Part shown: piece after piece, positions 27,523-42,061 of the stretch
Layout of the letters: each line of letters begins with the position of its first letter
Numbering within the stretch: the first letter of the stretch is position 1
DNA from: Aquificota bacterium
Lineage (GTDB): Bacteria; Aquificota; Aquificia; Aquificales; Aquificaceae
NCBI GenBank assembly: GCA_018771605.1
Contig: CP076324.1
Span: 744,001 to 808,000, forward strand
Length of the DNA: 64,000 nucleotides
Direction of reading: 5' to 3'
Made by a program: the position numbers and the translations under genes
Notes under the pieces: model-generated
What the model saw: the letters and a program-made list of their open reading frames with translations, nothing else
The model's database searches: none
What the model was told of the DNA's origin: nothing

Positions 27523-28374
27523 ATGCCTGAGATAATAATAGCGGAACATGCGGGCTTTTGCTTTGGAGTAAAAAGGGCCATAAGCCTTGCGGAAGAAGCC
27601 CTAAGGGATGGTCAAAAGGTCTTTAGCATGGGTCCCCTCATACACAACCCACAGGAGGTGAAAAGGCTTGAGGAGAAGGGCCTTGTGCTTCTCAAAGACG
27701 AGAACCATCTAAAAGAGGGCCATAGGGTGCTTATCCGTTCCCATGGCATTCCACCCCAAAAGGAAAGGGAACTCCTTTCAAAAGGTGTGAAAATAATTGA
27801 TGCCACATGTCCCTACGTCAAGGCGGTGCATTCTGCAGTTATAAGGCTTTGCCAAGAGGGCTACTTTGTGGTTTTGGTAGGAGAGAAGAACCATCCCGAG
27901 GTGATAGGCACCCTTGGGTATTTGCAAGAGTGCGGCGGCAAAGGAATAGTGGTAGAGAACAAAGAGGACCTCAAGGAAGCTCTTGGAAAGGAAAGGGTGG
28001 GCGTGGTGGCCCAAACCACCCAAAAGGAGCAGTTTTTCAAAGAAGTGGTGGGAGAGCTTGCCCTGTGGGTAAAGGAATTAAAAGTAATAAATACCATATG
28101 CAACGCTACATCCGAAAGGCAGGAGGATGTTTATAGCCTTGCGCCCAGGGTGGATGTGATGGTCATAATAGGCGGTAAAAACAGTGGAAACACAAGAAGG
28201 CTTTATGAGATAGCCAAAAGCCTAAACCCCAACAGCTACCATGTGGAAACCGCAGAAGAGCTAAAAGAGGAGTGGTTCAAAGGCGCCCAAAGGGTAGGCA
28301 TAACGGCAGGTGCCTCTACCCCCGATTGGATAATAAGGGAGGTGGTGGAAAGGATAAGGGCTTTGACTGTATAA
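27523..28374 (+). CDS. ispH: 4-hydroxy-3-methylbut-2-enyl diphosphate reductase
   Basis: 283 residues. The last enzyme of the MEP isoprenoid pathway; it reduces HMBPP to IPP/DMAPP with a [4Fe-4S] cluster. Cluster cysteines are Cys13 (AGFCFG), one in DATCPYVK (about 95) and one in NTICNAT (about 190). SHGIPP and GGKNSGNT are also conserved. The terminal TAA lies inside a 23-bp sequence that is repeated 236 bases downstream on the far side of a palindromic element. Confidence 0.97.
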   Translation: MPEIIIAEHAGFCFGVKRAISLAEEALRDGQKVFSMGPLIHNPQEVKRLEEKGLVLLKDENHLKEGHRVLIRSHGIPPQKERELLSKGVKIIDATCPYVKAVHSAVIRLCQEGYFVVLVGEKNHPEVIGTLGYLQECGGKGIVVENKEDLKEALGKERVGVVAQTTQKEQFFKEVVGELALWVKELKVINTICNATSERQEDVYSLAPRVDVMVIIGGKNSGNTRRLYEIAKSLNPNSYHVETAEELKEEWFKGAQRVGITAGASTPDWIIREVVERIRALTV

Positions 28375-28384
28375 TTAAATCTAT
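28362..28384 (+). repeat. 23-bp direct repeat, left copy (candidate target-site duplication)
   Basis: TTTGACTGTATAATTAAAT followed by CTAT; identical to 28598-28620. It contains the ispH stop codon (TAA of GTA-TAA) and a TATAAT. Confidence 0.8.
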
Positions 28385-28597
28385 ACGTGGGGTGAGAAAT
28401 TCATCCTTTGTAGTGGCAGGTTTTAAACCTGCCAAATTATAAAACATCAGGCGGGTTCAAGACCCGCCACTACTTTTGGATTTTTTATTAGTAGTTGCAC
28501 GGCATGCCGTGCTTCTACATTTCTTGTCTCATTTATTTTTTGCAAGAAGGTATGATGGTATCCCAGCTTCTTAATTAATTTCTCACCCGGCGTGTGT
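28385..28597 (+). mobile_element. Non-coding palindromic MITE-like element, 213 bp
   Basis: The left end is ACGTGGGGTGAGAAATT. The right end, read on the minus strand, is ACGCCGGGTGAGAAATT (15 of 17 identical) preceded by ACAC. The interior holds three nested palindromes. The first is GGCAGGTTT-T-AAACCTGCC (28415-28433). The second is GGCGGGT-TCAAG-ACCCGCC (28450-28468). These two are joined by GTAGTGGC/GCCACTAC. The third is the perfect GCACGGCATGCCGTGC (28497-28512) flanked by GTAG/CTAC. There is no ORF. It is bordered by 23-bp direct repeats, and partial relatives occur near 40879 and 42024. Confidence 0.7.
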
Positions 28598-28620
28598 TTT
28601 GACTGTATAATTAAATCTAT
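28598..28620 (+). repeat. 23-bp direct repeat, right copy (candidate target-site duplication)
   Basis: Identical to 28362-28384. This copy supplies the -10 box and the first two bases of the start codon of the thioredoxin-fold gene. Confidence 0.8.
28606..28611 (+). promoter_or_regulatory. -10 box of the thioredoxin-fold gene (leaderless arrangement)
   Basis: TATAAT ending 7 bases before the ATG at 28619, inside the right 23-bp repeat. Confidence 0.5.
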
Positions 28621-29116
28621 GAGATGGTTTTTCTTTTTGCTTTTTGTTTTTAGCTTTTCCTTTTCACAAGACCTCTACACAGAGTTTATAAAATCCCAAG
28701 TAAAAGAGATACCCCTAAACAAGGCCATAGTGGTAGGGAAGGGAAAAAATGAACTCATCAGCTTTATAAACCCCGACTGCGGGCATTGTAGGAAGGAGTG
28801 GAAGGCCCTAAGGCCCCATTTGGACAAGGTCAAGATATACGTGTTTTTACTGCCCTTTAAAACCTTTCCGGAGAGCTATGCAAAGTCCAACTACATAGCC
28901 TGTTCAAAGGACAAGTTAAAGGCCCTTGATGAGGTCCTCTCTGGAAAGTTTGACGGAAGGCCTCCCCTTGTAAAAGACTGCCCTCTTGTGCAAGAACACA
29001 TAAAGGTGGCGGAAAAGTTAAACGTGCAAGGCACGCCCTACAACATAATCCTTAAAAATTACAAGGTAATAGAAGGCTATAGCCCAGCCCTTCTTAAAGA
29101 GCTTGGTATTCAATGA
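28619..29116 (+). CDS. Periplasmic thioredoxin-fold disulfide protein (DsbC/DsbG/DsbA-like)
   Basis: 165 residues from the ATG at 28619. An upstream in-frame GTG at 28592 would begin inside the mobile element and spoil the signal peptide, so it is rejected. The signal peptide is MRWFFFLLFVFSFSFSQ. The catalytic CGHC sits in NPDCGHCRKEW near residues 55-62, with a cis-Pro in VQGTPYNI (about 140). It lacks the DsbC dimerisation domain. It probably oxidises or isomerises disulfides in exported proteins. The stop overlaps the next gene by 4 bases. Confidence 0.85.
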   Translation: MRWFFFLLFVFSFSFSQDLYTEFIKSQVKEIPLNKAIVVGKGKNELISFINPDCGHCRKEWKALRPHLDKVKIYVFLLPFKTFPESYAKSNYIACSKDKLKALDEVLSGKFDGRPPLVKDCPLVQEHIKVAEKLNVQGTPYNIILKNYKVIEGYSPALLKELGIQ

Positions 29117-40848: not shown

Positions 40849-40878
40849 GTATGGGTAATTATTTTACATTAAAAACAC

Positions 40879-40954
40879 ACGTGGGGTGAGAAATTAAAGC
40901 CAGTAGGCTTCCTATAAGTTGTTTTTAAATGTAGTGGCACGCTGACGCATGTCT
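40879..40954 (+). repeat. Partial copy of the palindromic MITE-like element (left end)
   Basis: ACGTGGGGTGAGAAATT (40879-40895) matches the left end of the 28385 element exactly over 17 bases. About 35 bases on, GTAGTGGCACGCTGACGC (40931-40948) resembles its GTAG-GCACGGC unit. The palindromes and right end are missing, so this is a decayed or truncated copy. Confidence 0.6.
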
Positions 40955-42023: not shown

Positions 42024-42061
42024 GTGAGAAATTCATTCTTCGTAGTGGCAAGTTTTAAACC
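42024..42061 (+). repeat. Fragment of the palindromic MITE-like element
   Basis: 38 bases beginning GTGAGAAATTCATTCTTCG align with 28392-28429 with three mismatches, covering the end of the terminal repeat and the first half of palindrome 1 (to TTTTAAACC). The remainder of the element is absent. It directly precedes the broken glycosyltransferase gene. Confidence 0.65.

Follow-up and report, generated by a model that had tools for sequence, protein, structure and literature searches.

A MITE between ispH and a thioredoxin-like gene in an Aquificota bacterium, and a matching IS with long target duplications beside the IS982 family

In a hot-spring bacterium, a MITE sits at the junction of ispH and a thioredoxin-like gene, where about 27 bp of target are duplicated. 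The question raised by this locus is how a mobile element could be accommodated at such a junction while the upstream gene kept its stop codon and the downstream gene its promoter sequence, and which enzyme could have produced a duplication of this length. The locus lies in a stretch of 64,000 nucleotides of the host chromosome, referred to here as the window, and its features are as follows:

27523..28374, forward strand: ispH (LytB) gene, 283 aa (ORF; Pfam LYTB, E 9.4e-100)
28358..28384, unstranded: left copy of the target duplication, 27 bp (exact 23 bp at 28362-28384)
28370..28375, forward strand: TATAAT of the left copy, overlapping the ispH stop codon (from sequence)
28372-28374, forward strand: ispH stop codon TAA, within the left duplication copy and within the TATAAT at 28370-28375
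28385..28593, unstranded: MITE, 209 bp, non-coding
28385..28401, forward strand: left terminal inverted repeat, ACGTGGGGTGAGAAATT
28410..28473, unstranded: internal hairpin with arms of 24 nt
28491..28518, unstranded: second internal palindrome, missing in shorter (~162-169 bp) copies
28577..28593, reverse strand: right terminal inverted repeat, ACGCCGGGTGAGAAATT, equal to an end of the 966-bp IS described below
28594..28620, unstranded: right copy of the target duplication, 27 bp (exact 23 bp at 28598-28620)
28606..28611, forward strand: TATAAT (-10 box) of the right copy, 7 nt 5' of the downstream ATG (from sequence; conserved in sister genomes)
28619..29116, forward strand: downstream gene, thioredoxin-like, 165 aa, with the duplication edge inside its start codon (AT|G)

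The direct repeats TTTGACTGTATAATTAAATCTAT at 28362-28384 and 28598-28620 are 100% identical, as the sequence-only reading had noted, and form the sole direct-repeat family within 28300-28700. Alignment of both copies extends to 27 bp with 25 identities and 2 mismatches, GTGT (28594-28597) being aligned with GGGC (28358-28361), and the duplication is therefore best read as 27 bp. The chance of a 23-bp identity is about 3.5e-14 for one given alignment, which, together with the recurrence of the same arrangement at many sites, argues that the repeats are not fortuitous. The inverted repeats at 28385-28404 and 28574-28593 are 85% complementary over 20 nt, and their positions delimit the element as 28385-28593. 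The 17-bp imperfect terminal inverted repeats described previously (ACGTGGGGTGAGAAATT / AATTTCTCACCCGGCGT) are retained, and the length of 213 bp is corrected to 209 bp, since the four bases 28594-28597 belong to the duplication.

The ispH stop lies in the left repeat, and the right repeat contains TATAAT and, at 28619-28620, the AT of the downstream ATG (28619-28621), exactly as read earlier. Because the duplicated piece holds both the -10 box and the AT of the start codon, both neighbours are intact in sequence; at this level ispH has kept its stop codon and the downstream gene its promoter sequence. The earlier wording that the duplication "saved" a promoter is appropriate in this sense, although a claim of activity goes beyond the retention of sequence. 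The -35 region would fall outside the duplication, and therefore the element now supplies that upstream sequence.

Sister genomes show the junction in its empty state. In six genomes of the same genus (L106, L107, L109, L110, L112 and L114), ispH adjoins the thioredoxin-like gene, the element is absent and the site is present in a single copy, as had been predicted for relatives lacking the element. The proposal that the ispH stop and the -10 box of the next gene were one sequence before insertion also holds, as both are fused (GTATAAT..ATG) most clearly in L106 (GTATAATTTTCCCCTATG), L112 (GTATAATCTTGAATATG) and L114, and more loosely in the others; L108 and L111 are also without the element and have a different junction. 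For the 383131 locus of the host chromosome, the counterpart in six sister species has a single copy of the site and no element between the adjoining genes, with a TAGAAT a few nt 5' of the ATG; at the 1043473 site the far flank is not syntenic in the empty-site comparison.

On the host chromosome (a single contig of 1.72 Mb), 19 elements of MITE size have paired ends, and fragments occur besides. The closest copies of the window MITE are 97-98% identical to it; further fragments of it lie in the window at 40861-40897 and 42024-42061. As single-stranded RNA the MITE folds far better than shuffles (z -9.3), and much of this foldability is due to the internal palindromes. An Rfam search gave nothing beyond sub-threshold chance matches, and a pattern search of the host genome found no simple palindromes with GTAGNGGC/GCCNCTAC arms. 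The element is short and non-coding, has terminal inverted repeats, occurs in many copies and shares its ends with an autonomous element, features by which its sequence is classified as a MITE. Bacterial MITEs are likewise short, non-coding, numerous and provided with terminal inverted repeats common to an autonomous IS; the window MITE differs from them in that the duplications are longer and the duplicated piece includes a promoter and a start codon.

The autonomous element is an IS of 966 bp outside the window, with the ends ACGCCG, of which 21 intact-ended copies with the same ends as the MITE are found in the host chromosome, in many cases with paired ends exactly 964 bp apart. The suggested search for a transposase with matching ends was therefore successful, and long duplications occur there too. 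Beyond the terminal repeats, the MITE and the IS have little in common, and therefore the MITE is not a simple internal-deletion derivative of the IS. In one IS copy (383386-386081), about 1.7 kb of additional DNA lies close to the 3' end of the transposase gene.

The IS has a single ORF encoding a 282-aa DDE transposase, whose residues D114, D215 and E240 are invariant in an alignment of nine Aquificota members. The host transposase itself has no match in Pfam and none in a PDB sequence search, and against the NCBIfam IS982 model it scores 28.2 bits, below the 130-bit cut-off. NF033520 is matched by all nine members of the alignment (best E 1.2e-12), and hhalign of this alignment against canonical IS982 transposases of related genomes gave 97.6% (E 3e-12) over 254 columns. 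An AlphaFold model of a single fragment (L081) reached a pLDDT of 42 and was set aside, and kinship with another transposase group in G036, G009 and G040 was dismissed, as there was no real similarity (probability 2.3%). Members of the IS982 family have AC ends, a length of 845-1282 bp and a transposase of about 290 aa, and the direct repeats of registered members span 2-10 bp (Fayad et al., 2020, PMC7335449). The 966-bp IS resembles them in its AC ends, its length of about 1 kb, its single ORF (about 290 aa), which begins roughly 100 bp into the element, and a DDE triad that can be aligned over the full length; it differs in its duplications of 18-38 bp as opposed to 2-10 bp, and in its 28 bits as opposed to 130. 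Judged from these alignments, the 282-aa transposase is a divergent sister of the IS982 family. Since neither the curated score nor the duplication length agrees with IS982, the IS, though homologous to IS982 and taken to behave like an element of that family, is classified as a new long-duplication variant beside it, not as a plain member. Transposase relatives in four genomes of other Aquificota are about 50% identical where aligned, and their ends are closely similar to those of the 966-bp IS (TTGAGTGAGAAATT in G097, G102 and G028; GGGTGAGAAAT in G099); the contig collection yielded no more than four partial relatives, all belonging to one MAG.

The duplication length is normally near fixed for a transposase family because of the geometry of the synaptic complex. 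Here, 30 IS and MITE sites, among them those of the relatives in G097, G102, G028 and G099, have duplications of 18-38 bp, mostly 23-28 bp; the duplications abutting IS ends measure 23-38 bp, and those of the relatives with the approximately 50% identical transposase 24-33 bp. In the host chromosome, clear duplications abut the ends of 14 of 21 IS copies, 7 of 19 paired-end MITEs and one composite pair. Long duplications are present at other copies too; against this stand the remaining 12 of the 19 MITEs, which have no clear flanking duplication, as could be due to decay, recombination or another route. The alternatives offered earlier for the unusual length were an atypical mobilising enzyme or another duplication route, and the former is supported, since the long duplication belongs to the matching-ended IS too. 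Canonical IS982 elements (~162 bits; L171-L175) coexist with the long-duplication branch on one contig of G097, and their duplications in this genome, read by eye, are about 5-15 bp. Given this range and the 2-10 bp of registered members, the long duplication is therefore a trait of this branch.

Long and variable duplications are already known from other families. IS1549 and IS1634 of the IS1634 family generate direct repeats of 8-514 bp on insertion (PMC2266710) and so share long repeats of variable length with the 966-bp IS, but, compared by description, this family was split off from IS4 and its elements measure 1500-2000 bp. For the IS1182 family, a work cited in PMC7335449 is given there as reporting direct repeats of 2-60 bp; it is a different family from the 966-bp IS, and the likeness in long repeats is one of description. 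The IS1202 family has a long-duplication subgroup with 16-28 bp, while another of its subgroups targets a specific class of chromosomal sites, and its members have a transposase of 394-507 aa and a length of more than 1.3 kb (PMC10132070). An IS1202 identity, first prompted by the 27-bp duplication, was ruled out by the lengths of 282 aa and 966 bp; the 16-28 bp range overlaps with that found here, which extends to 38 bp.

The insertion sites share features at their edges and in their centre. On both strands, AT|G read outward is the favoured edge sequence (A 0.90, T 0.77, G 0.58; 60 edges), and the motif is present on at least one side in 20 of 22 host-genome sites. By rough gene calling, 11 of the 22 host-genome duplications end inside a possible ORF start codon, which is completed by the G. 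TATAAT occurs on either strand in 15 of 29 duplications, compared with 6.5 in dinucleotide shuffles, none of 2000 of which reaches 15. It is central in 12 of 30 duplications as against 2.4-5.9% of noncoding AT-rich background windows (P 6e-8, binomial), a background taken from one 64-kb window with overlapping windows and matched by AT threshold, not by the full length distribution, so that the P values are indicative only. In the host genome, TATAAT commonly lies 6-9 nt 5' of an ATG, so that an element landing there duplicates the -10/start unit in full; this spacing, together with a -10-like box similarly close to the ATG at two loci across the genus, suggests leaderless mRNAs in this Aquificota lineage. 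A promoter at 383131-386107 received two insertions, which produced the order duplication-MITE-duplication-IS-duplication with three copies of the site and an interrupted IS, and both insertions have the same right-hand edge. In our reading, these features mark a new branch of IS982-like elements whose duplications are long and whose insertions fall over AT-rich -10/start-codon regions.

It is highly probable, in our view, that the window MITE was moved in trans by the 966-bp IS and that staggered joins at AT|G points 18-38 bp apart produced the long duplications. The observations underlying this are the shared ends, the long and variable duplications of both MITE and IS, the empty sites and the preferences at edge and centre; from them we infer catalysis in trans by the 282-aa transposase, a staggered-cut mechanism and a retained promoter function. 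The IS, with about 20 copies on the same chromosome, would supply the transposase, which would link the ends of the element to opposite strands of the target at two points only loosely coupled. Both points would prefer AT|G read outward, and they would straddle easily melted AT-rich DNA, often with a -10 box mid-way. Repair of the gaps left by the stagger would yield the long duplication, and the downstream gene would keep a complete -10 box and start, because one edge often falls inside the start codon, while the upstream gene would keep its end. For this sister group of IS982, a range of 18-38 bp combined with one AT|G preference common to both edges points to two strand transfers that are loosely coupled, and the duplication illustrates how, in a very compact genome, a mobile element can occupy promoters and yet leave them in place.

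A mobilising transposase other than that of the 966-bp IS is improbable: the interiors of MITE and IS are unmatched beyond the ends and the left ends of the MITEs vary (ACGTGG, ACGTTG, ACGCCG), but both elements share ends, the range of duplication lengths and the class of target, and they are inserted adjacently at one promoter. Still less probable is an origin of the flanking repeats by recombination, slippage or tandem duplication before insertion instead of by integration. Some copies have no repeats, the two members of one IS pair have a duplication in common on either side of an 18.5-kb segment, and a second pair has a re-used flank, so that recombination may act at the elements; however, at about 20 sites the repeats lie directly against the ends of the element, the consensus of the edges shows symmetry and relatives have a single site copy without a repeat, by which this origin is strongly disfavoured.

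Whether promoters are targeted as such is a separate matter. The IS might select just AT-rich DNA with AT|G edges, insertions elsewhere being harmful or lethal to the cell, and we give this account an even chance. Rough gene calling assigns about 95% of the window to coding sequence, which would leave surviving insertions only the short stretches between genes, where a TATAAT is often found 6-9 nt ahead of an ATG, and about 15% of motif-matched AT-rich edges in the background fall on start codons anyway. On the other hand, the central TATAAT in 12 of 30 duplications exceeds the 5.9% of the background matched for AT content, edges and noncoding position, and one promoter was hit twice with an identical right-hand edge; this enrichment and the double hit favour targeting over survivorship. 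More tentatively, the IS982-like branch might recognise -10 boxes with nearby start codons, possibly in a melted or polymerase-bound state, cut symmetrically around them at AT|G 18-38 bp apart and so insert between a gene and the neighbour upstream of it, which would amount to a built-in gene-sparing insertion that gives each side an intact promoter, start or stop.

Two arrangements of IS copies on the host chromosome were also observed. The IS at 1286538 is flanked by a 28-bp duplication that reappears in inverted orientation at the right flank of the IS at 427733, pointing to recombination among IS copies. At 160009-180442 (L130, L131 and L145), a segment of 18.5 kb lies between two like-oriented IS copies in the manner of a composite transposon. 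A single 27-bp duplication, ATGAGTTATATGTATAAGCCTTTATAC, is present at their outer sides alone, and the outer flanks had no match among the sister genomes searched. The segment carries a second aroA (74% to the copy at 519362), sulfate assimilation genes, TauE and a NiFe hydrogenase.
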